A DNA stretch of 64,000 bases. Origin: Spinacia oleracea. Taxonomy: Eukaryota > Streptophyta > Magnoliopsida > Caryophyllales > Amaranthaceae. Positions 27,938-43,100 of the stretch are shown one piece after another. The stretch covers positions 20,761,449 through 20,825,448 of the forward strand of contig NC_079491.1 of the NCBI RefSeq assembly GCF_020520425.1. Reading direction: 5' to 3'. Made by a program: the position numbers and the translations under genes. Below the pieces are notes generated by a model, which was not told the DNA's origin, did not search any database, and saw nothing but the letters and a program-made list of their open reading frames with translations. How positions within the stretch are numbered: the first letter of the stretch is position 1; each line of letters begins with the position of its first letter.

Positions 27938-30900
27938 ATGAAGGTGTTTGATGTTGAGGCTCATTCTCTCTGTCTTTTCCTCTTCACCGGCGTCACCAAT
28001 TCCAAGTAATTTCTCCTTCTTTTTCTGTTTCCTGTTTTCAGTTTGTTTGATGAACCTTAAAACAACATTTATGATTGATTGGAACTTATAGTTGGGAATT
28101 ACGTAGTATTGAAGATTAGTAAAGGAATGCTATATATTCTGTCTAGTGCGGACATTGTATCTAAATGTTCAGTGAAAATGTTGTATGAGGGAGTTATTGT
28201 TACTGTTGAAGTAAAAATGGATGCCAATTGGTTGAACCCCATCTACATCATTGCCTTTTGGCTCTCTCTACACCAAAAAGTAAGTAAAGCAAAAACACAG
28301 AATTTTGCTATTTCGGATGTGGAGTACTAGGATGGATTGAGAATTTTGATTTTCGTGCACGGATTATATTGTGGTTGATGAGAACTTTACCCTACTTTGT
28401 AGGTGGAACCTTTGCTAGCAAGATGAAAAAGTAAACTTCCTCTAGAGCAGGCTTCTATCATGCCTTACTGATGAGCTTTTTCTTGTTCCCCCACTTTCTA
28501 GGTCTTAACATGACAACAAAGGATGAAATTTCCATATTCTTGCTTCTTCACAACCATCAAAAAACGCTTCAAAAACGCTTTAGTTGTCCTGCACTCCTTC
28601 TTGGGGCGTTGCTGCGCTTGAGTGTTCTTGGTCATCAAGATGTTGTCTTGATTGCTATGAATGTAGATTTTGTTGCTTCCAATCGCTCTTTTCCAGCCAA
28701 TCATAATTTGGACAAATCGCTCACAAATAAGGCAAATGTGATAGTTCTTTACTTGTAAATGCTGCTATTGGTACTGTAGTGCAAACTTGGTCAATATTCT
28801 TTACTTTCGTTACACCATCTTAATTTGCTTCTACAATCCTAAGGATACTTAGATCCTAAAAACTACTCGAGGGAGCATTTCAAACTCTGCTTTCTGTGTG
28901 ACTGTTTGTAACACTTGTTAGTTAAATGTGTTGCAGTTTCTTCCTTAATACTTCGTAGATGACATCAATTTTGGTCTTGAGGAGGTTACTCATTTTTACT
29001 CCCAATTACAACTGGTTTCCCTGTTTTGCTATTTTCTTAGATTTTGTTGCATATCTGTACAAATACAGCTGCATAGTTAAATTAAAAGACTGACCAAGTT
29101 GAATTAATATGTATTTTATCAGTACTTTTGGTTTAAATTAGAGAAGCGTTCAATCTTTTGTAATTACCATAAAAAGTAATATGGTTTCATTGGTTTGTGT
29201 TAGTTCCTCAGTGAGATTCTACTGAACCTTCTGAGGTTTGTTTCCTTTGTGATCTTAGTGTATGTTTATTGTACACTGGGCCTATGAATCCTCATGTCCA
29301 GAGGTGGAAGAGAAGTATCTTTTATCTTTGGACTGATTCTGCTAAGGGTTTTTTGTGTTTCCCTTTTTCTTGGGAGGGGGGATGCATTGTGGTATCTAGA
29401 GCTTATTTTTTCATGTTATTGATATCAAATCATGCCGGCGTGAGATGTAGACAGCTGAAATCATGTGATTGTTTCCTAGAGAAGAAAGTTTATAAATGAC
29501 CTGTCTGTAAAGCTTGAGATTTTCTTTTCGATCTTAGCTCAATCCCCTTAATGATTCCATAGTTAAATGTTTATGGACTTAATGAACATTATGAGCTATT
29601 GGGAACCATTGAGGTTGCTTCAAGGTCAGCATCTCTGCTGGTTTTGAGATTTTTCCTCATGATGTATTCTATCTTCTGACCATCAATATAATTAGGGGCT
29701 ACTCCCTCCGTCCCTTAATCTTGCCCCGGTTTGACCGGCACAAAGTTTTAGGCAATTTAATTGACTTATTAATTTATTAAGTGGTAGTTTGCATTTTTTT
29801 TAATATAGTTAGTGGGAAATGTGACAAATAAAGGGGTGGGGTGTGGGTGGGGTTGAATATTTTAATGTTTTTTTAGGGAGTATGAATATATGTGGGTTCT
29901 TGGGTAGGTGAGAGAAATGATATAATATTAGTAAAAGTATGTCATTTATAGAAACGTGGCGAGTATTAAGGGACGGCTTTATAAGGAAAGCGGGGCGAGT
30001 ATTAAGGGACGGAGGGAGTATATGTTTCGTCTCTGTGTGAACTTTTCCTTTCTGCGAGGCTGTGTGCTTATCGACTGCAGGTCTGCAGCTCTATGGTCGT
30101 AGGAACTAGGAAGAGATGCGGGCAGACGGGCAGTTGATCTCCCCCTCCCCGCTCGAAATTGTGCTTTAAATATCTAGTTATGATAAACATGTAATCTAAT
30201 ACACAGATCATGCAGTTTCTAACTCTGGAAAATAATGAAACCATTTTTCAATGCTGGTGTTGACAGAGAACTTTTGGAACTTATGCAATCAGGAAAGTTG
30301 GAGCCAGAAGCTGCTTTTCTTAATGCCTCTCTTGTGAGTTTCTGTGAATCTCTGCTTATATTCTCTGTTTTTAGCGAGGTTTGCTGCTTTGCTTATCTTT
30401 CAACCAACTGTTTATTTTGTTTCTTGAAACAGATTCCTGATGTCTTCCCTGTTCTAGCAGCTGCCCACAAGGCTCTACTGTCGAAAGCACGGGAGTCTCT
30501 AACTACAAGGACACTACATTCTGAGCTAGTTTACAATTATTCAGGATCTAAGCATGTAATCATCTGTTGTTGCTAATAAATACCTAATGCTCCCTACATA
30601 CCCGCTCTTCCCCTTTACTGCCCCAAATAGAATGCGTTGAAGAGCTTTAATATTAACGAGTTCATGTTGATAGATTACAGAATCTTTAAAAAGGTGTGGC
30701 ATTTCTGATAGTTGCACCTATATCCTTGCTGCATGTTTCGATGCTTCAGTAAATGAGGTGAGCCGTTATCCATTTATTTATTAATTGTTTCAGCAGTGGC
30801 TCTGAAATGTTGAGCATATATGACTGGATTTGGAATGTTCATAGATTAAAGCCATCCAAGACCTAATCAAGGGAAAGGAGATTGGTTTGGAGGAGCTGGC

Positions 30901-31127: not shown

Positions 31128-31243
31128 AGACAGGGACTCGTTCGATGCCATAGCTTTTCATTTTGTGTTACCCTACAATGTACCTTACTTTATGTGAGTA
31201 CATTGTATAAATCAACTTTGAGATTTTGACATTAACTATTGTA

Positions 31244-31852
31244 CTCCCTTCGTCTCTTTTTGTTTTTTACGTTTGGTATTTTTCACGCGTTTTAACGACT
31301 AATTAATATGCATTGAGATTTTTCTAAGTTTTTCATGTAAACGAGGAAACTTAGTTTATTTATAATGTTTTTACTCTTATCAAAATTCTGATATTGGGAA
31401 AATGAGAAAAAGTTATATGGAAAAGTGTGAGGGATTAAATGACTCAATTGATTTAATTGGTTAATACTCCCTCCGTCCCTTAATACTCGCACCGTTTTGA
31501 ATCGACACGTTTGCCAATGCACAATTTTGACCCCCAATATCTTTAACTACATATTATAAAAACTTATAAAAATATTAATATTTTGAAAATATATATTAAG
31601 ATAAACCAACAATATATTATATACTAATATTTGTTTTCATATACTATATATAAAATAGGGTCAAAGTGAATTATGTGAATAGTGCAAAAAGTCAAAACGG
31701 TGCGAGTATTAAGGGACAAAGGGAGTGTAATAATTGGGTACAAATTTTGATAGAGTATTAAATCATTTATGTGATAATATAAAAGGAAATGTAAAGAACA
31801 TTTTGAAACACCCAAAAAGGAAAACGTAAAAAACAAAAAGAGACGGAGGGAG
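31244..31852. mobile_element. Stowaway MITE interrupted by another MITE
   Basis: The ends CTCCCTTCGTCTCTTTTTG and CAAAAAGAGACGGAGGGAG are inverted repeats with TA on both sides. Internal arms continue to match (TTTTTTACGTTTGG against AAAACGTAAAAA). A second MITE sits at 31467-31725, so the original element was about 350 bp. It begins about 115 bases after the CGI121 stop codon and may lie in its 3' UTR. Confidence 0.9.
31467..31725. mobile_element. Nested Stowaway MITE (CGCACCGTTTTGA subfamily)
   Basis: The ends CTCCCTCCGTCCCTTAATAC and GTATTAAGGGACAAAGGGAG are inverted repeats. The left flank is TA and the right flank TG. It lies wholly inside the MITE at 31244-31852 and resembles the element at 51949. 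Confidence 0.88.
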
Positions 31853-32928
31853 TATTAATCATTGATCATTACTAACTAGAGTAAACTAATACTTCAGGGT
31901 TATGCGCCGTTTTTCACCATGTTTTGCTTTTCTCACTTTTGGGATGAGCAAAACCAATAAGAGTAAAACCAGTGGATGACAAAAAAGAATTGGTCATCAA
32001 ATAAATAAAATTTATCTCTTATATTTTACTCATGACCAACTCTCATGTCCGATCATGATCACTAACCCCTACTGAATGACCAATTAAATTTAGTCATTTT
32101 TTTTTCTCTTTAACACTTTTATCCTACCCATACCAAATAAAGAAATAAATAATAAACAATCTTATTTCCACTTGTCTTCTCTATATTCTATGACCAAGAA
32201 TTAATTTTGGTCATGGGCATGATCAGATCATGTTTCTCTCACTTCCCTACTTATCTCTCTTATTTCTTTATTGATTTTAATGCTCACTCCCTCCTATGGC
32301 CAAGCCATGATTAATGGCTGGGTACACTCTAAAAAGAACTTGTGGTAATTCCTCTGTCCCTTTTTATGATTTACGTTTGGTATCATGCATGCGATTTAAC
32401 AAAAAATTAATGTGGGCAAAGATTATTTTTATTTTATTTTTTTACTTACATGATGTAATTTACATTTAACAATAATGTTTTCACTTTTGCCCCTCATCTG
32501 ACATTGGAAGAGTGAGAGAGATTTAATGCCCTAACGAAAAAGTGTGAGAAATTCAATACCTCAATAAATTTTACGAAACATATTGTGATACTATAAATCA
32601 TAAGGTCCTAATAATTCATACACGTGAATTTATTGGTCAAAATAAGTTTAGATCAATCTAAATAACATGTGTTTACGAAATGCCTCTCAAAAAAAAGTTT
32701 GCAAATTAATTCTAGTAGAATAGAATCTTATTGATTGAAACTAAGACACGAAGGCACGGCATAAGAGCACGTGAGCTTTGGCCATCCTTTTGAAAATTCA
32801 CCGCACCAACACGGTTCGACATGAAACAAATGTGCTTGACGTGAGTTGAGCCCATTCGGCACGAAACACGGCCCACAGTCATCTTTAGTCAATAGGTAAG
32901 TATGATTGCCGACCTTGCCTACAAAGTA
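31853..32928. other. Intergenic DNA left of the mariner element
   Basis: No gene is seen. A degraded Stowaway relative of the 31244 family starts at 32348 (ATTCCTCTGTCCCTTTTTAT) and fades near 32620. The stretch 32750-32880 holds GC-rich words (CACGAAACACGGCCCAC) like those of the element at 14601-14944. Confidence 0.45.
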
Positions 32929-32954
32929 CTCCCTCCATTCCTTTTTGTTCTTCC
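32929..32954 (+). repeat. Left terminal inverted repeat of the mariner element
   Basis: It matches the complement of 40054-40079 with two differences. A second partial copy of TTCTTTTTGTTCTTCCC lies 40 bases further in, a possible internal transposase-binding repeat. Confidence 0.92.
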
Positions 32955-33439
32955 CATTTCCTTTTTTAGCATTTCTTTTTGTTCTTCCCCTACTGAATTT
33001 TTACTATTTTTGGCCATAGTTTTTTCACCAATTTACCCTAAGATTCCCCACTATTTACCAAAAAAAACCCTAAGATTCTACCCATTCCCACCCACTTTTA
33101 CCCCATCCACCTTATTTAATTATTTAACCTAACCCCACCCCCCCTCCCTTTATAAACTGTCCCTATCTCCCTTTCACTCTCCCACCTCTCATTCTGATTT
33201 CTCTCTCTCACCTCTTCGGATCTCTCTCTCTCTCTTAAAATCCCTCCCCTGTTCTTGAGAAAACCCTAGGTTTTCCGCCTCTGTTTTGGGTTTTCCTCTC
33301 CAAATCTCTCAAATCTGAAACGTTTTCGCTTAAATACTTTCATAAAAATTACTCAGATTCATATTCCAAGCAGATCCCCTCTATTTTTGTCCCCTTTTTG
33401 GTCCCTAATCGTCGCTGATCTTTGTTTTTCTGGTACGTG

Positions 33440-34713
33440 ATGGGTTCTTCTTTGTCTAGAACTCGAGGTGATTCTGGGGTGGGAACTTCCGGTCAAAGAA
33501 TCCCCGATTCCAACTGTGATTGGGGATCCAAGTGCAACTGTCCCAACAACGAGCATTCCTACTCCGGCGAGTATAAAAACAATCTATATTTGGCCCAAAA
33601 AGAAAATACGAGTACTCGAAACTATTTGAAAGAATGGTTTGAGAAGAGGGAAGTGGAGCCAGGAGAGGAGGTTGAGTCAAAATATGACGATCGGAAACCC
33701 ACACCCTCAGATCTGCGTTTTTTCGGTGAAGGAGATTCCGATGAGGTATTACTTTTGATTTTTTGCGATTTATTTAGGGTTATTTATGTCGGTTTTATTA
33801 AAATGGGTTGATGATTGTTTGCATGTCTAAAAATGTGGGATTTGATAAATTTTGGAATTTTTTGGAGTATTGTTCATTGTACTCGGATTATTTATTGGAT
33901 AAGTTTCTCTGATTTCCCATTGCATGTGTTAAAAATGCAGATCTGATATTATTTCGAATTTGTTGGGAATTTTTTGGAGATTTGTTAGAATAAATCGGGC
34001 TTTTTATGTTATTTTGTGCTCTGTTTTCTCATTTCATGTTGTTAAAATTGAGTTATGAATTTATTTGGATATATTTGGAAATTATTTGAATTAAATCGGA
34101 ATATTCATGTGTTTTGTTGATCTGTTTTCCCATTGCATGTGGTAAAAAATGGGATCTGGATGTATTTGGAAATTTATATTGAAATTTTTTGGGTAAAAGT
34201 GGTTTGCTCTCATTAGTTGGATTATAATGGAATTATTTTGTGGTTTGCTCTCATTTATCTCATTGCATGTGGTAAAAAATGGGATCTGGATGTATTTGGA
34301 AATTTATTTTGATTTTTACAATTTTTGTTGGATTTTAATGGAATTATTTTGTGGTTTGCTCTCATTTATCTCATTGTATGTGGTAACCATGGTGATCTGA
34401 AATTATTTGGAACTTTATTTTGAGTTGTTTGATTAAATCGGATTAATTTTTGATTGATAATGGTGTGAAATATTGATCTGATTTTAATTCATGGTCCCCT
34501 GTTATTTTATGATGGCACTAATCATGTTGTTTGTCCCCTATTGATTGCAAGGAACCAAGTGGGTCTGATTCATTTGATCTGGTGTATGTTGGAGAGTGTG
34601 AAAATGAGAATGGTGATGCTATTGGGTCTCCAAGGCAACGTTCATCTGGTTATCCCTCCTCAAAGAAAGTTGAAAAGGGAAAAAACTCGGCTTCAGGATC
34701 TGATGATGCTTAG
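33440..34713 (+). CDS. Small two-exon protein carried by the mariner element, function unknown
   Basis: The exons 33440-33745 and 34552-34713 are joined by a GT-AG intron (GAG|GTATTA and TTGCAAG|GAACC) and keep frame, giving about 155 residues ending in TAG. The N-terminus MGSSLS fits the N-myristoylation pattern (Gly2, Ser6), and a short Cys cluster CDWGSKCNC lies near residue 27. The rest is acidic and Ser-rich (SGSDSFDLVYVGECENENG), likely disordered. It starts about 510 bp inside the left TIR, in the opposite orientation to the transposase. It could be an accessory transposon protein or a captured host fragment. The splice structure and clean frame support a real gene, but no family was recognised. 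Confidence 0.6.
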
Positions 34714-35206
34714 ATAAGTCTGTCTCCTTTCTTCCTTTTAAATTTTATTGAATGCTGGCTAGCTGTGGAGTCATAAGGTGGATGCCAACAACTGTAATCT
34801 GTTGTTGGCCAGGGGCGTTGTTGTTTGGATGATGATGTTGTGATTAGTTGTATGGATGTTGATGTTAGATAATGATGTTGGTATAATGATATTGATAATG
34901 ATGATTAGATGATGGTGTTGCCATATGGTTTTAATAATGATGTGGAATGTTGTCTGTGTGATGAACATGATTTGATGGCTTAATGTCCCCTGTTTTATGG
35001 TATGTTTTGTGTATGATAAATATGATGCTTTGGCGAGTATGATATTTGATCAGTATAACTATGTTTTGGATTAGTAAGAGCATGAAATGAATATAATTTG
35101 GGGATAGGGTTTGAGTTATTTAAGTCCTCTCAATGTGGCCTTGTGTTGAATGCTTAATGTCCAAGTATGTCCCTTTAGGATAAAGTAATGTCCCTTTATT
35201 TATTGT

Positions 35207-35356
35207 GATCGATGATGAGTCTTTTTAATGCTGAGGAACAAGTCTTATTAACCACAAATGCTCGTGCTGCCATTAGTATCAGTAATGATATTTCTCGGGC
35301 GCTAAGTGTTTGTGGTTTGGATTTGTTTTAATGATGCTTGGGGACATTTTGAGATC
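35207..35356 (+). ncRNA. Hairpin module A1 with box C-like and degenerate box D-like ends
   Basis: It starts GATC followed by ATGATGA (35212-35218) and ends GGGGACATTTTGA then GATC. The expected CTGA is TTGA here. The inner arms pair AACCACAAA with TTTGTGGTT. Confidence 0.45.
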
Positions 35357-35725
35357 AATATTAGGAGGTTTGTGATGTTCAATGATGTGATTGTTGATAT
35401 TCTGAGATCTATGTTTTAATAATTGTCCTTTAACTTCTTTTGTCCAACGGAGTGAATGTCATTTCACACAATCAAATGTGAATATCAATCATTCCATTGG
35501 GCAGAAGAACGTTAAAGATATGATAGTATTGAAACTAGTTGATCAATGATGTGTGTCAATATATCTGAGAAATGAAACCCTACATGTTAATGATCTGTTT
35601 AATGCTTCATGTCCCATGAATCAGTGGAGGTCTGTGATGAGTCTTTCATTTGATGAGGTTCAAACCCTATGTTTTGATCAGTTCATGTTTCATTTGATGC
35701 ATTGTTAATTGTTATTGTTATGCTT

Positions 35726-35870
35726 GATCTGTGATGAGTCATCATTTGCTGAGACTTAAACCCAATGTTCCAATAACACTTGTGCACCATTAGCATCATT
35801 GATGCTCTTCCGGAGCTAAGTGTTAGGGGATAGGGTTTGTGTCAATGATGCTTGGGGACATTCTGAGATC
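35726..35870 (+). ncRNA. Hairpin module A2 with box C/D-like ends and closing stem
   Basis: It starts GATCT then GTGATGA (35731-35737) and ends CTGA (35863-35866) then GATC. The outer bases GATCT and AGATC pair. A further CTGA follows box C at 35750. Inner arms pair AACACTT with AAGTGTT and AAACCC with GGGTTT. A conserved TTGGGGACATT lies just before the last CTGA. Confidence 0.5.
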
Positions 35871-36355
35871 TTATGTCATGTTATATATGTTGTGTTAATG
35901 ATTTATTTTGGCTTTCCCGTCTTTTGCCAGTTTTAATGTTGTTAGGATACAATGAAATTGAATCCTTCACATATAAACTGGCATTAGACAGGAGAGGCAA
36001 TTCATGTCTTGCAAAACAACATGTATGATTGTGGGGTTAATGATATTCAATGATATTAGTGTTGATATTCTGTGATGTATGCGTTGATAACCTGAGATAT
36101 TTGTTTCTAAACATGTCCTTCATCACCAATTACAAAAGGGAATACAGATCATTTCACATCATTGAGTGATCATGTATCCCCTTTGGTAAATTGGTGATGA
36201 GGTTGTAATCATTTAGAAACAAATTTGTCAATGATGTAAATCAACTTAACTGAGATTCAACCTTGTGCATTCTTGCCTTGTGCATTGTTGCCTTGTTCAT
36301 TGCTTCCTTGTTTTTGCTGCTTTGTTCTTGTTTTCTTGTCCATTACATCTTTTGG

Positions 36356-36432
36356 CACATCGGCATCCAAATGGGAAGAATTTCCATCTGAAAATGATGT
36401 GATATGCATTCTTTCCATTTGGATGCCGATGT
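36356..36432 (+). ncRNA. Hairpin B4, near-perfect 27-29 bp stem
   Basis: The left arm CACATCGGCATCCAAATGGG and the right arm CCATTTGGATGCCGATGTG are complementary through AAGAAT, with only G:U exceptions on the plus strand. The loop of about 22 bases (CCATCTGAAAATGATGTGAT and neighbours) is identical in B5 and B6. Stem length and small loop are within the range of plant MIRNA foldbacks. Confidence 0.65.
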
Positions 36433-36475
36433 GTTTAGAGATGTGATGTGATAAAGTTATGTACTTTTGCCTTGT

Positions 36476-36622
36476 GATCTGTGATGAGTCTTCATTTTAT
36501 GAGTGTCAAACCCTATGTTTTTCAATCAAACTCATGCACCATTAGCATCCATGATGTTTTTCAGGAGCTAAGTTTAATTGGAAAGGGTTTGATTCAATGA
36601 TTTTTGGGGACATTCTGAGATA
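36476..36622 (+). ncRNA. Hairpin module A3 with box C/D-like ends
   Basis: It starts GATCT then GTGATGA (36481-36487) and ends TTGGGGACATT, CTGA (36615-36618) and GATA. The inner arms pair TCAAACCC with GGGTTTGA. Its length of 147 nt matches modules A1 and A2. Confidence 0.5.
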
Positions 36623-36677
36623 TTTATGATTCTTTAAGAACACTTTGTTTATGTGAGGCATATTCCATGTGTTATCA

Positions 36678-36826
36678 ATGATGAAATGATTGTTTTTGTC
36701 AAAATTACTTCTTTCGACGCATCGATTTCTAAGTGGGAATAATTTCCATCTGAAAATGATGTGATATTATTATTTATTTCCATTTAGAAGCCGATGTGTT
36801 TAGAGTTGCGATTTTGTATGTCCTGA
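36678..36826 (+). ncRNA. Hairpin B5 with C, D'/C' and D-like boxes
   Basis: ATGATGA (36678-36684) and CTGA (36823-36826) bracket a stem of about 25 bp (left arm near 36717-36743, right arm near 36770-36799). The loop contains CTGA followed two bases later by AATGATGT, the order of D' and C' boxes. Four G:U pairs and one A:C mismatch are seen on the plus strand. Confidence 0.55.
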
Positions 36827-37067
36827 GTTTCTTGGGCCCTTAGTATCCTCTGTCAAATGGAGTCAGTTTCCTTATCCTTTTTAAATTGTGTTAGTAATTT
36901 TCTCCATTTGGGAGTAGGATATTAATGTCATAAGATTCAATGATGACAAACAACTTATAACTGAGAATAACAACTAGGATTAAATTATGTCCCCTTGATC
37001 ATTCATGTTGTAATTCACTACCTTGCCTCTGCTGCCTTGTTCTTCCCTTGTCTTTCATTTGTTATCA

Positions 37068-37217
37068 ATGATGAAATGGTTGTTTAAGTCAAATTTTACT
37101 TCTTTTGACGCATCGGTTTCGGAGTGGGAAGAATTTCCATCTGAAAATGATGTGATTTTATTATTTCTTTCCACTTCGAAGCCGATGTGTTTATAGTTGT
37201 GAATTTGTATGTCCTGA
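37068..37217 (+). ncRNA. Hairpin B6 with C, D'/C' and D-like boxes
   Basis: ATGATGA (37068-37074) and CTGA (37214-37217) bracket a 25 bp stem (37108-37133 with 37165-37189). All four stem differences are G:U pairs on the plus strand. Loop and flanks match B5, and the B5 plus C1 pair and the B6 plus C2 pair form a tandem unit of about 390-400 bp. Confidence 0.55.
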
Positions 37218-37432
37218 GTTTCTTAGGCCCTTAGTATCATTTGCTTAATGGAGTCAGTTTCCTTAACCTTTTTAAATTGTGTTAGTAATTTGCTCCATTA
37301 GGCAAGAGGATATTAATGTCATAAGATTCAATGATGAAAATCAACTTGTAACTGAGAATAACAATTAGATTGACTGTTGTTTATGTTTGCATGTCCCCTT
37401 GCCTCTACTGCCTATTTGTTGCCTTGCCTCTG

Positions 37433-37640
37433 CTGCCTTGTTCATGGTTTGCCAATGCTGCCTTGTTCTTGTTTTGCCAATATTGCCTTGTTCTTGTTTT
37501 GCCAATGCTGCCTTACCTCTTCTGCCTTGTTCTTGTTCTGCCAATGCTGCCTTGTTCATGTTTTGCCAATGCTGCCTTGTTCTTGTTAATGCTGTCTTGT
37601 TCTTGTTTTGCCAATGATGCCTTGTTCTTGTTATGTACTT
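37433..37640. repeat. Minisatellite of about 24 bp in the mariner element
   Basis: The unit GCCTTGTTCTTGTTTTGCCA with AATGCT recurs about eight times with small changes. Fragments also occur at 36263-36335 and 37019-37050. It produces open frames in several phases that are not genes. Confidence 0.9.
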
Positions 37641-37979
37641 CTTCCTTGTTTATTGCCTTGCCTTGATTAGTCTATTTTGATGTGAATAAGAAAGATGAAA
37701 AAACTTTACTAAACTTAAACATGAGATTCATTCATTGATGCTTCCAAAAGATATGCTTACAAAATGTTTTGCCTGCATGTTATGCTTGCATTTAAGCTTA
37801 CAAAAGTGACACATTGGTTTTACTTGTCAATTTAAAAACATGTCCCCAAAACACAAAAAGTTATCTAATTGTTTGCTCTTTGCTTCACTGGTTTGCTTTC
37901 CATTCATCATAGAGTTGCATGCATTCATTAACTGCCCATATAGGCGCCTTGACTTGCTCTGGCAGTCTGCCTTCATCTT

Positions 37980-39530
37980 CTAGAATCTTCTTCTTGTTGT
38001 GTGGAAGTTGGTAATCATTGTGCCCTTGTGTTTAAGAATCTCATTAGAAGCAAACTGTAATGTCATCCACACATTAGACAATGTCTTAGGATGCAATTCA
38101 TTAAAAGAATCATACACTGCTCCACTTAAGTCCTCCACAGTTTTAGGCATTTTCTTGTGCATAAGTGATTGAATGGACCTGAAAAATCCCAAGTCCAAGA
38201 TGTTGCAATCTGGACTGTTTGCTGGCTGTTGAGTCAACACAAAAGTGAACCCATCTTGTTTGTAGTGTAGTTGCCATTCAGGATCATCTTGCAATATATG
38301 TGCCTTTGCATTATCTTGAATAATATAGATGACCTTTTCCCCTTCATGTGGTGGCCACTTTGCCTTGATTGCTGGAATTAGCATGTTGATCATCATTGCC
38401 CTTGTTTCAATTTGATTCACAGACTTCACTGGCTTTGTTTCAATGGTCCCCTTTACTCTGTTTTTTGATGTCCTCTTGGCTGCAACTGCATTTGTGAATG
38501 GAAATATGCCTATTTTACCATCAAATTCACAATTCCCATTTTCACCCCACCTTGGTCTGGCTACTGCTGCCATGAACATGAATTTTGGTATCTTGGTTCT
38601 TGAACTTGCACTTCTATGTGGATAGGGTTCATTGTTTGCAAGATAAACTCTCTGGTTTTTTTGAGTCAAATAAAACCACTTCTCATCAATATGAATGAAG
38701 TCATACATGCTGTAATATGTTGGTTCTTGTGGTATAGTGTAATCCATTATTAGTCTGAGTACCCACCTCATCCTTGCCATTTTGCATGCTTCTGAAATGC
38801 CTGGATGCAAGGGACTTGAGTGTGGCTTAATAATTTTTCTCTTGATGAGCCTCCATACTGTTGTTGGTCCCAAATTGAACATTTTTGCAAGATCTACAAT
38901 GCATGTTCTGTCCCCCATGGCTATTTGTGCAATAGAGTCATATGTGACTTGAACCTTTTTCCTGCCACACTTGTGATACTTACTTTCCACCACATATGAA
39001 TTCATTGCTGCCTTCTGCTTCTTTGCTTTGTCCCATATTGTTCCTATGGTTTTTCTGTTGTAATCAAATTCTATGGCTGCATCCCTTATTGTCCCAAATA
39101 AAAGAGTTTCTGAATCTGGAATTTTTCTATTCAGCAGGAACACCAAAATTTCAAGCCTCAATTCATTATTTATTCTAGGAGTCCTGGGCTTATGATGATC
39201 TGTTCTTTGTGTTGCTGTTTGATGATGATGAGGTGATGCATTTTCTGATGGTGGTGGAAAGTTCAAATCAAAAAGAAATGGTACCTCTTGAAAGTTGGTA
39301 TTTTGCTGTTGCCCTTCCCCTTCTACTTCTGGTACCTGTTGTACATCTTCAGTAATGTTTGGTACATCTTCATTAAACTCAAAGTCCCCAAAATCAGCAG
39401 CAGTATTTTCAGAAGCTTGTACCAAGTCAGCAGCATCATCACCTTCCTCCGAGTCAGAATCGGAGTTAATGCCGTCGCCTTCATCATCAGAAAATCCGAG
39501 GAAATCGTCATCCTCTTGATCTGAAGCCAT
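37980..39530 (-). CDS. Mariner-like (DD39D) transposase
   Basis: A single uninterrupted 516-residue frame runs from ATG at 39530 to TAG at 37980. Residues 1-115 are acidic and low in complexity. Residues 120-235 form the helix-turn-helix DNA-binding region. The catalytic domain shows HIDEKWFYL (Asp282), IIQDNAKAH (Asp406) and ILDLGFF (Asp446). The spacing between the last two is exactly 39 residues, the plant mariner DD39D signature. The frame has no stop or shift, all three aspartates are present, and it starts about 550 bp inside a well-kept TIR, so the element may be recently or currently active. The enzyme would cut and paste DNA at TA sites and could mobilise related Stowaway MITEs. Plant mariner transposases are usually somewhat shorter; the long acidic N-terminus is unusual. 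Confidence 0.95.
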   Translation of the reverse strand: MASDQEDDDFLGFSDDEGDGINSDSDSEEGDDAADLVQASENTAADFGDFEFNEDVPNITEDVQQVPEVEGEGQQQNTNFQEVPFLFDLNFPPPSENASPHHHQTATQRTDHHKPRTPRINNELRLEILVFLLNRKIPDSETLLFGTIRDAAIEFDYNRKTIGTIWDKAKKQKAAMNSYVVESKYHKCGRKKVQVTYDSIAQIAMGDRTCIVDLAKMFNLGPTTVWRLIKRKIIKPHSSPLHPGISEACKMARMRWVLRLIMDYTIPQEPTYYSMYDFIHIDEKWFYLTQKNQRVYLANNEPYPHRSASSRTKIPKFMFMAAVARPRWGENGNCEFDGKIGIFPFTNAVAAKRTSKNRVKGTIETKPVKSVNQIETRAMMINMLIPAIKAKWPPHEGEKVIYIIQDNAKAHILQDDPEWQLHYKQDGFTFVLTQQPANSPDCNILDLGFFRSIQSLMHKKMPKTVEDLSGAVYDSFNELHPKTLSNVWMTLQFASNEILKHKGTMITNFHTTRRRF

Positions 39531-40053
39531 TAAGTCCCCTGTTTTTTTGCTATTTAATGTTGAATTGAGGAAGAAATTTTGGTGTTTTCCTTGTATTTAT
39601 TGAACTTGGTTAGAGTCAGATTTTTGTCTTTTGTGGGGGAAAGTGACCCTATTTATAAAGGGAATTCACTATTTCAACCTCTAAAAAATTTGGAGGGAAA
39701 ATGAAAATCCCCTGTTTTTTTATTTGGGGAAAAATTTGGAGTGAAATCTGAAAGTCAATTATTTGGGCAAAATTTCCAGCTAAAAAAAACGTGAGTCATT
39801 GTTAAACTTGTTTCTGATTGGTCCATGTAAGAGCAGATGGGTCCCATAGCCCCATGTGACTGAAAAATGTATGTTGATTTATTTCATTACTTTAATAAAA
39901 TATCTATTTTTCTCCCTATTAATTTAATACTTTCTATCTCTTTATTTTATTCAATCTCTTACACCCAATCATTATTCTTACACCCAATCATTACTCATAT
40001 CCCAATACAAACCAAGATTCAATTTTCTTAAACCACACCCAACATTATTTAGG

Positions 40054-40079
40054 GGAAGAATAAAAGGGAATGGAGGGAG
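40054..40079 (-). repeat. Right terminal inverted repeat of the mariner element
   Basis: The end GAATGGAGGGAG is reached before TA at 40080-40081. The adjacent subterminal region (39955-40000) has two copies of CTTACACCCAATCATTA. The next gene starts 45 bases beyond this end. Confidence 0.92.
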
Positions 40080-40124
40080 TACAACCCAGTAGTGTACAAG
40101 TCTAGGCTACGAAAAGCTGATAAA

Positions 40125-43100
40125 ATGGACAAACAAGAAAACCCATCAACGACTCTCCCTCTTCTTAGCACCTCACGCTCACTCACTGGAGAAGCAATAG
40201 AAGAAGGTATTCAGATTGAAAGAAACATAAATGAATTTAAACATGATCAACTTAGGGCTTGTTTGGTTCAGCAAGGTAAATATAATAATTGGGGAAAAAG
40301 GGTTTTTGTAGAAGAAGCAAAGAAACAAGTATGGTTAGCAGGTCCATTGATATTAGTGGGTCTGTTAACATTTTCGTTGCATATAATATCTCTAATGATG
40401 GTGGGTCACCTCGGCGAGTTAGCTCTCTCTGCAGCTTCCATGGCTACCTCTTTTGCATATGTTACTGGATTCAGCTTCTTGGTTAGTTGCTTTTTTCCAT
40501 TTTATTATTCTAGTCTTTTTTATATGTTACCTTTGCTTTAGCCGAAACACTTTCATTTTAAGGTGCAATATTTTGATTTTTGCACTTTCTCATATTTAAG
40601 GAAAAATTCCTTTCAATATATATTTTCATGTTAAAGTATGAATGTATATATGATGAAGCAATCAATAGTAATGCTATAAACTCTTTTGTGGGATGAATAT
40701 TGTATTCTTGTCCACCCTTTTTTATTACCCTATGTGACAGGAAAAAGTCGTATGAAACGGTTGCACAATAACCTAACCAAAACGTTGTCGTTTCTTTTTA
40801 TAATTAAGGGTGCCTTTTTTTTACTAGAAAATTTTAAGGTCGATTTAATATTTAATCTGTCGGAATATATTAAATAAATTAATGTGAGCCAGTCGCGTAA
40901 GACTTTGATGAAATATTTTTGAAAATCCGGTTACACAAAAGATGAAATTTGTACAGTAAATTTGTATCTCTCATAAATGTTACAGTAGAATAGATCTACG
41001 TGAGACAATCTCACATAAGACTTTCTCAAGTTGTTGAAAATTGAGACAGTCTAAACTCAACAGTTTATATCTGTGTGAGCATGCAGCTAGGAATGGCGAG
41101 TGCGCTAGAGACGATATGTGGGCAGTCATATGGTGCAGAGCAATACGAAATGGTAGGCATACACACACAGAGAGCCATGGTTTTGCTGTTATTGATAAGC
41201 ATCCCCATCAGTGTAATATGGTCATTTACTGAACCAATTTTGGTGGCTTTAGGACAGAACCATGATATTGCAGCTGAAGCTGCTCCTTATGCCCAATTTA
41301 TGATCCCTAGTCTTTTTGCATATAGTATTCTTCAATGCCTTATCAGATTCTTTCAAACCCAAAATATAGTCTTCCCAATGCTGCTGACTTCTGGAATCAC
41401 TACTCTACTGCACATATTAGTCTGTTGGTTATTGGTGTTCAAATCTGGCCTAGGAAGTAAAGGAGCTGCCCTTGCAAATACTATATCATACTGCATTAAT
41501 TGTATGCTGTTAGCAGCTTATGTTAAATTTTCTTCGTCGTGTTCAAGAACTTGGACAAGTAGCTTCTCAAAAGCATCATTTCAAGGTATCCCAGCTCTAC
41601 TCAGGCTCGCTATACCATCAGCTGTCATGGTCTGGTAAGGTTCTTTTTTATGTTCCTACAGAAAGGACTTACAGTTTTCTCATTTCAATTGTTACACAAG
41701 GATGCAACTCATGCAAGGATGTCAGATACTAAATTTTGTTTGATATGATCTTTGATCTTGTTTCTGTTGCATGTGGAGATTAAGGACTTTTTTGTTGCTG
41801 TGATTGAAACAGCTTGGAAATGTGGTCTTTTGAAATGATTGTTCTGTTGTCTGGTCTTCTACCAAACCCAGCACTAGAAACTTCAGTGCTTTCCATCAGG
41901 TTTGCACTTTGCTCTTCAACTAAAGATTTCTTGTCTTTTTTTATAATGACATTTAATAGCATAAAACTGCATATCTAAAGATGATAGATTATAAAGAGGG
42001 TGAACTGTCATCACAGCAATCATATAATGACACCGGCACTGAATCACGGCACAGTATGAGTTACACTGTTAAAACAGGATTATCAGTTTGTTATACTAAT
42101 CTATTAGTCTATTGGAACTCTAGTAGAGTGATGACCTATTCTGTAATGCAACTTGATGCAGCCTCAATACTACCTCACTTGTTTGGGTTATTCCTGAAGG
42201 TTTCAGTGGTGCAGTAAGGTGATCTTTTGTTTGCTTTCATAAACATTGATATTATCTTATCTGTTTTAAGATCCGTATATAATATTTGGCTTTCGCAAAC
42301 ATAACTAATTTTTTACTTAAATTTATCTTAAAGAACTGAATTGTTTTCAAGAGGAAATTAAAGGAAACACAAAAATGTACAAGTAGCCTCTGAATTCTGT
42401 TTGGGCTTGTCTGTCTACAGTACGAGGGTCTCTAATGAATTGGGAGCTGGGAAGCCAGAAGCTGCAAGAACAGCAGTATATGTCGTTTTATGCATGACAG
42501 TTTCCGAGAGCATTGTTATGGGGTTAATCCTTATACTGATACGAAATGCCTGGGGTTATGCTTATAGTAGCGAGATGGAAGTGGTGACATATTTAGCTTC
42601 CATGATGCCCCTACTTGCATTAACCAATTTCGTTGACGGACTCACATGCGTCCTCTCCGGTAACACACTTACATTATTGCCAAAGGTTTATTTTTTCAAA
42701 CCTGGAAAACAGGCTACAGCTTGCTCTGGTATATATTTATGAAAAATTCCCTGAATGATTTATTTTAATTTAATTTTTATATATTTCTGTGAACATTATA
42801 TTCAGGGACAGCTAGAGGATGTGGTTGGCAAAAGATAGGTGCATATATCAATCTAGGATCATTTTATATTGTGGGTCTTCCAGTTGCTATCCTGTTAGCA
42901 TTTTACCTGCACATTGGAGGGAAAGTAATTATTCACTCCTTTATACTCTACTTAAACGACATAATTAACTACTGTCTTTGAAGTTAATTAACCACGCTTT
43001 TGTTATTGAATCTCTTGTTAAAGGGTCTCTGGTTAGGAATTTTATGCGCAATCACCCTTCAAGTTATCGCCTTCCTTGTCATTACACTGAAAACAGACTG

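Follow-up and report, generated by a model that had tools for sequence, protein, structure and literature searches.

A mariner-type transposon of spinach holds an array of candidate structured RNA units with box C/D-like architecture

Introduction

Eukaryotic cut-and-paste transposons are usually thought to need little beyond a transposase and their ends, and to our knowledge the known plant mariner-like elements hold little besides the transposase. Rice CACTA transposons carry miR820, a microRNA against a host gene (as stated in one part of PMC3459959). Nop-domain proteins link the box C/D-type guides of TIGR arrays and IS110 bridge RNAs to mobile or viral systems of prokaryotes, and clustered snoRNA arrays occur in plants (both in passages of PMC12045711). 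At the structural level, the U:U and G:C positions of human box C/D kink-turns are strongly conserved (according to an excerpt of PMC5689011).

The window analysed here, a stretch of 64,000 nt from Spinacia oleracea (contig NC_079491.1), contains a transposon with an array of hairpin units that can be set beside each of these systems. Like box C/D snoRNAs and archaeal C/D sRNAs, the units display boxes C and D with internal counterparts C' and D', as well as closure by a terminal stem and the kink-turn offset. They differ from box C/D snoRNAs in their length of about 140-300 nt, in the long hairpin between D' and C', in their location inside a transposon, and in having neither an Rfam match at cut-off nor a known guide. 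The likeness to miR820 is that of a plant DNA transposon with its own non-coding RNA hairpin; in contrast to that microRNA (partial text of PMC3459959), the spinach array comprises about ten units and keeps boxes rather than an arm. TIGR and IS110 systems also present box C/D-type RNAs tied to mobile or viral elements, in long tandem arrays in the case of TIGR, but they are prokaryotic and need their own Nop-domain protein (within the same passages of PMC12045711). A Pfam scan of the two proteins of the spinach element, ORF1 and the transposase, revealed no Nop domain, which sets the element apart from TIGR systems. With plant mariner-like and Stowaway elements it shares CTCCCTCC-type termini and TA ends, its transposase is probably of the IS630/Tc1/mariner kind, and it differs from them in its size, its second gene and its RNA array. 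Among the papers listed from the open PMC literature, no title or abstract opening dealt with a box C/D array in a transposon. The RNA units are of a known kind, and the aspect that is new to us is their placement as an array inside such an element.

The transposon and its genes

Counted with its two terminal TA dinucleotides, the transposon spans positions 32927..40081 of the window and has termini TACTCCCTCCATTCC... of Stowaway/mariner type. As in the IS630/Tc1/mariner group, it has terminal inverted repeats and a TA target site, identified by eye, and eight of 20 copies selected by similarity to the array align from 32924-32927 to 40081 or beyond. Within its 7.2 kb, ORF1 and the hairpin array occupy the + strand and the transposase the minus strand. 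ORF1 (33440..34713, + strand; 10-1136 in the sister copy L036) is split into exon 1 at 33440-33745 and exon 2 at about 34552-34713, with splice sites placed by eye, and encodes a small protein that starts with MGSS, carries a CDWGSKCxCP motif and travels with the array. Its exon 1 is 82% identical to that of a sister subfamily, and exon 2 shows a dN/dS of 0.41 over 53 codons between the window and L036, a copy of that subfamily. At least 150 genomic matches to ORF1 were obtained (scored among 499 candidates), including the sister group at 80-82% identity. Against Pfam no family reached its cut-off, the single match having E = 0.11.

The transposase (37980..39530, minus strand, 516 aa) matches the IS630 model with E = 1.2e-6, but with 28.2 bits against a cut-off of 100, and Pfam DDE_3 with E = 0.035; comparison with solved structures gave no match at E up to 1. 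Three acidic motifs are present, HIDEKW, QDNA and SPDCNILDLGFF. The second and third catalytic aspartates are separated by 34 residues; DD39D is the type known for plant mariner elements. Of 671 candidates from a genome search 83 were scored; none of these falls below 92% identity, and 75 are free of internal stops. Compared with its counterpart in L036, the window transposase shows a dN/dS of 0.086 (270 codons) with a pS of 0.64, a value at which synonymous sites are near saturation. The match of other copies is confined to residues 1-504, mostly in longer open frames, and the C-terminal end of the window transposase therefore looks altered.

An array of hairpins between the two genes

The original prediction, drawn from the letters of this stretch alone, had described at least eleven RNA-like hairpins following one another over some 2.1 kb, and this description is borne out by eleven hairpins within 35.2-37.4 kb. 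When 120 windows of 150 nt spanning 32900-40189 were folded, each against 60 dinucleotide shuffles, 12 of them showed z below -3 on at least one strand. All 12 lie inside the array (starts 35180 to 37220, with a minimum z of -13.0 at 36320), so that this region folds better than shuffled sequence, and in 11 of the 12 it is the + strand that has the lower z. A strand-symmetric alignment of 11 segments, chosen by hand from predicted folds, yielded 11 hairpins with 33-68 aligned positions each and outermost ends at 35237 and 37326; the last unit of the array ends near 37363. The arms had been held to be largely unique to each hairpin or subgroup. This is so in part, as the hairpins also fall into the paralogous groups H1/H4/H8, H7/H9/H11 and H10/H12.

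Units of the array, all on the + strand, are of several types. Type A is represented by U1, U4 and U8. U1 (35206..35357) has a terminal stem TGATC/GATCA, box C at 35213, the end of D' at 35234 and hairpin H1, after which come C' and a degenerate box D (TTGA) ending at 35352. U4 (35726..35870) has a GATC/GATC terminal stem, boxes at 35732-35752 and 35846-35866 and hairpin H4, whereas U8 (36476..36621, hairpin H8) has degenerate D' (ATGA) and C' (TGATT) boxes. A remnant of a type A 5' half, U3 (35632..35700, direct repeats D16), is devoid of a strong fold, its window z being above -1. U2 (35378..35571) carries C and D' at 35383-35405 and C' and D at 35547-35568, on either side of hairpin H2, and in U6 (36046..36256, hairpin H6) box C has degenerated to TGATATT, while D', C' and a box D ending at 36253 are also present. 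The type B hairpin H7 constitutes U7 (36336..36454), the strongest foldback of the array (z -13.0), with CTGA-AA-ATGATG in its loop and long arms with few mismatches, which in the predicted fold include an apparent near-perfect 21-nt duplex. U9 (36671..36971) is a composite of a terminal stem GTTAT/ATAAC, box C at 36679, type B hairpin H9, D' and hairpin H10, followed by C' and D at 36941-36964; U10 (37060..37363) is its duplicate, with hairpins H11 and H12 and C' and D at 37332-37355. A single consensus loop, TTTCCATCTGAAAATGATGTGA, is common to H7, H9 and H11, whose arms differ. U5 (35883..36026) consists of hairpin H5, which folds and is recovered by the strand-symmetric alignment, with no clear box set. 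Its slot is occupied by a hairpin 83-91% identical in the sister copies L037-L039 (91% in L037) and, in L036 (2008-2107), by an unrelated hairpin, as if swapped.

Rfam returned no match at gathering score for the whole window. With E up to 5 there were 13 matches in 34700-37800 of the window and 22 in 1100-3600 of L036, none of which attained the family cut-off. MIR1509, the best MIR match (41.3 bits of 87), was rejected as a homologue upon residue-by-residue inspection. Homology to snoR31 was likewise rejected; this model matched the U9 unit of the sister copy with 31.3 of 45 bits (E = 0.01, with 341 bases searched), in an alignment that depends mainly on the boxes.

Box C/D-like boxes and kink-turn geometry

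The recurring linker words pointed out by the original prediction are real, and they had not been recognised there for what they resemble. They explain the hairpins of the array: CAATGATG behaves like box C and CTGAG like box D, and along each boxed unit the order is C, D', hairpin, C', D. In seven window units the four boxes C, D', C' and D accompany an internal hairpin, and a terminal stem closes the unit. Near the ends of these units stand box C (RUGAUGA) and box D (CUGA), in degenerate form in U1 (TTGA) and U6 (TGATATT). The hairpin or remnant units U3, U5 and U7 do not have the full box set, which counts against the box C/D reading. In the whole window, the array (35205-37370) holds nine of the 12 occurrences of TGATG-N8-15-CTGA on the + strand and neither of the two on the minus strand. 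The pattern ATGATG-N8-16-CTGA occurs nine times in the window, where shuffles give 1.6, and seven of the nine lie inside the array. The TGATG-to-CTGA distance is 12-14 nt from C to D' in U1, U2, U4 and U8, and 12-15 nt from C' to D in all seven boxed units (boxes of U8 and U1 degenerate). From C to D' it is longer in U6, and in U9 and U10 a second hairpin lies inside it.

Pairing across the boxes was compared at 30 offsets in 12 units, seven of the window and five of L036, with box positions set by hand. Not among these 12 are the window's U3, U5 and U7, three features of L036 (the hairpin 2008-2107, a truncated unit near 2413-2433 and a type B hairpin standing alone near 2660-2820) and any unit of L037, L038 or L039. 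Degenerate boxes were accepted in five of the 12 units (U1, U6, U8, L036a and L036c), which counts against the box C/D reading. For both stems pairing was best, among the 30 offsets, when it began 2 nt ahead of TGATG and directly behind CTGA (0 nt), equivalent to a 3-nt bulge, and this is the kink-turn arrangement of three bulged nucleotides on the C strand and none on the D strand. At this offset contiguous pairing averages 4.00 bp in the terminal stem and 3.75 bp in the internal hairpin stem of the C'/D' motif across the 12 units. When the 3' flanks were re-dealt among units, the terminal sum of 48 fell to 36.5 (p = 0.012) and the internal sum of 45 to 22.8 (0 of 20,000), p-values that are optimistic because several of the tested units are paralogues; a looser terminal-stem test gave p = 0.00045. 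The terminal stems vary yet pair. At the offset they read TGATC/GATCA, GGTC/GACC, CATC/GATG, AATC/GATT and GTTGTTC/GAACAAC; the GTTAT/ATAAC stem of U9 and U10 pairs beyond a bulged base. Against the geometry count the exact-offset terminal stems of U6, U9 and U10, with just 2 bp each, although in U9 and U10 these 2 bp are followed by the bulged base and then by 5 bp. The internal stem at the exact offset is reduced to 1 bp in U8, U9 and U10 and to 1-2 bp in L036-9. The U:U and G:C positions of the kink-turn are present here because TGATG and CTGA supply them. On this basis the units are classed as box C/D-like in predicted architecture and not as confirmed snoRNAs.

Conservation of the array across copies and subfamilies

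That the array belongs to the transposon, as had been supposed, is upheld by its distribution. It is present in all 20 copies fetched by array similarity (L011 being a fragment), with whole units missing in some, in five of six loci picked by transposase alone and in four of five sister-subfamily loci picked by ORF1 alone. All of the copies compared come from a single species. Two loci were set aside from the unit comparisons: L035, which has an insertion of other DNA after ORF1, and L033, in which the 3.3 kb examined hold no array. Missing stretches follow subgroups, with 35884-35983 and 36817 to about 37450-37521 absent from L023-L032 and 36831-36984 absent from L017-L022; since subgroups miss whole hairpin units, these appear to come and go as modules.

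Nucleotide diversity (pi) in the 20 array-selected copies is 0.034 in the array against 0.065 in the transposase, which makes the array the most conserved large region, a comparison biased by the choice of copies for array similarity and for which the sister subfamily was relied on instead. Array units are 79-92% identical between the window and the sister. Jukes-Cantor (JC) distances for seven array stretches are 0.08-0.24 (six against L036 and U5 against L037), compared with 0.70-0.95 for the intron and two spacers against L036 in forced alignments that are close to unalignable. The array thus diverges far less between subfamilies than do the intron, the spacers and the synonymous sites. The units U1, U2, U4 and U9 differ between the window and L036 at one of 68 box-core sites, as against 62 of 419 stem sites, 23 of 98 spacer sites and 61 of 229 remaining sites (p = 2e-5 for cores versus all other sites; core letters defined on the window copy, and U10 omitted from the sum for sharing its L036 partner with U9). 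The spacers between boxes vary between subfamilies in U2 (11 of 27 sites) and U9 (7 of 18), which casts doubt on free guides.

Strand asymmetry and compensatory changes

Non-Watson-Crick positions in the stems of the 11 hairpins comprise 39 G.T, 8 A.C and 54 others. As the composition predicts a G.T:A.C ratio of 1.5, there is an excess of G.T (p = 0.0006, with paralogous hairpins that are not independent), which points to selection on a + strand RNA. Among close copies the asymmetry is weak, with 34 changes producing G.T and 22 producing A.C (p = 0.14), and this counts against it; seven distinct double changes from one Watson-Crick pair to another were observed in the same copies.

Conservation of the pairing in other copies, which had been named as a check on the hairpins, is seen in compensating double changes. 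In an alignment of 14 type A units taken from the window and eight loci, both sides have changed with pairing kept at 17 of 38 pairs, 94.5% of the cells pair, and five of five measures exceed 500/500 shuffles. Sliding this alignment by 1 to 3 columns reduces pairing to 33-47%, a control biased towards the structure, since the latter was predicted from the very alignment that was counted. The U9/U10 alignment (10 sequences; 67 of the 86 predicted pairs counted, those of the hairpins) has 97.9% of its cells paired and five pairs with double changes. Three of its five measures lie above every shuffle; the other two fail to do so (93/500 and 148/500), which counts against covariation in this group. 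Together with the boxes, these patterns indicate that purifying selection maintains the boxes and the pairing of the units.

The GGGGAC spacer and its complement

An invariant TTGGGGACA, which includes GGGGAC, precedes box D in all 14 type A units. The GAC of this spacer pairs with a GTC after box C, so the spacer is partly structural. Because the U2 and U9 spacers vary and the type A spacer partly pairs with the other spacer, free guides are doubtful. The complement of GGGGAC, GTCCCC, was chosen from the spacer prior to the ranking of hexamers, and it ranks first of 1916 on the + strand of the window element outside the array (11 occurrences against 1.4 expected), a rank that needs masking of array and repeats and is 8 without it. 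Outside the array of L036 it again ranks first, of 1456 (9 against 0.5 expected). On the other strand of both the window and L036, GTCCCC is confined to three unit spacers. Most copies have the + strand sites intact, with no clear excess of conservation over their regions (20 changes against 23 expected). This complementarity hints that + strand transcripts of the element may pair with themselves or with one another, a form of self-targeting. The second most over-represented hexamer on the masked + strand of the window element is GAGTCA, with 8 occurrences against 0.6.

Interpretation and alternative explanations

The reading preferred here, and considered rather probable, sees in the region about ten structured RNA units arrayed on the + strand. 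Most are box C/D-like and kept by selection, and the units would be transcribed and serve the transposon. Of the possibilities raised by the original prediction, that of structured non-coding RNAs of the element is the one favoured by the boxes, the kink-turn offset, the covariation and the conservation between subfamilies. In the proposed mechanism, the array would most likely be transcribed with or downstream of ORF1, either in a single + strand transcript through both or from a start of its own. Each of the seven boxed units has the architecture for two predicted kink-turns: the terminal C/D motif sits on a short closing stem, and the long hairpin caps the D'/C' motif inside. Host 15.5K could bind these kink-turns and be joined by Nop56, Nop58 and fibrillarin, as in plant clustered snoRNAs. 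The likeliest service of such RNPs would be to act on RNA of the element, the GGGGAC spacer of type A units pairing with GTCCCC on the element's own + strand; alternatively, they may retain element RNA in a nuclear compartment. The more specific proposal that a mariner-type element encodes box C/D-type RNPs, borrowing host Nop56, Nop58 and fibrillarin and guided through GGGGAC to its own GTCCCC sites in + strand RNA or DNA, is advanced tentatively and is held to be unlikely.

The main rival, to which a minor probability is likewise given, assumes that a host snoRNA gene cluster was captured and diversified, its RNAs, if active, being ordinary methylation guides for rRNA or snRNA. It would account for the box C/D architecture of the units and for their clustering, given that clustered snoRNA arrays are known in plants (in the passages of PMC12045711 cited above), and the weak match of plant snoR31 to the sister U9 unit fits it. 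However, no Rfam family is matched at cut-off and the snoR31 alignment consists mainly of boxes, long hairpins separate D' and C', and the units are under strong selection within a transposon in two subfamilies.

A distinctly less probable alternative is that the hairpins are microRNA or siRNA precursors through which the transposon regulates host genes. The precedent of miR820 in rice CACTA elements (PMC3459959, partial text), the long arms of H7 with their few mismatches and weak MIR matches, the best of them to MIR1509, lend themselves to this reading, which the original prediction had also entertained for the array and which is now disfavoured. A miRNA precursor is expected to keep an arm, whereas here the boxes are kept, their cores nearly unchanged, while the arms drift, often in compensation. 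In addition, H7, H9 and H11 share a loop consensus despite differing arms, no Rfam miRNA model is matched at gathering score, and regular C/D boxes and terminal stems are foreign to such a model. Least probable of all is that the foldbacks are features of the DNA, either binding sites for transposase or host proteins or a secondary outcome of duplications, inverted and tandem. The gain and loss of whole units between copies and the origin of U9/U10 by tandem duplication agree with it, but the strand asymmetry sets it at odds with the data, with 39 G.T against 8 A.C in the stems and box pairs of the array on the + strand, so that the earlier suggestion of transposase sites is disfavoured as well. 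The linkers, moreover, are direct rather than inverted, and neither the kink-turn offset nor the double changes with G.U intermediates are in keeping with a DNA-level feature.

If the preferred reading of a selected snoRNA-type array is correct, it would imply that a cut-and-paste transposon recruits host RNP machinery. This would bear on the persistence of such elements in genomes and on the origin of new snoRNA-like RNAs, as well as on whether Nop-domain RNA-guided mobile elements, with TIGR and IS110 as the parallel, have a eukaryotic counterpart.

Repeats within and around the element

Downstream of the last unit, a TGCCTTGTT-rich tandem repeat with a period of about 25 (37397..37660, + strand, direct-repeat family D1) separates the array from the transposase gene. 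Repeats of this type, pyrimidine-rich on the + strand, border the array in both subfamilies (37397-37660 in the window; about 1310-1430 and 3370-3490 in L036). The intron of ORF1 contains, at 33818-34430, repeats around ATTGCATGT belonging to families D4 and D7, and the otherwise unalignable intron of L036 shows, by eye, a similar AATTGCATGT repeat at about 450-840. Outside the transposon, Stowaway-like short elements with CTCCCTCCGTCCC-type ends were recognised by eye at 29700-30022 and 31243-31855, the latter with another element apparently nested inside it at about 31465-31729.
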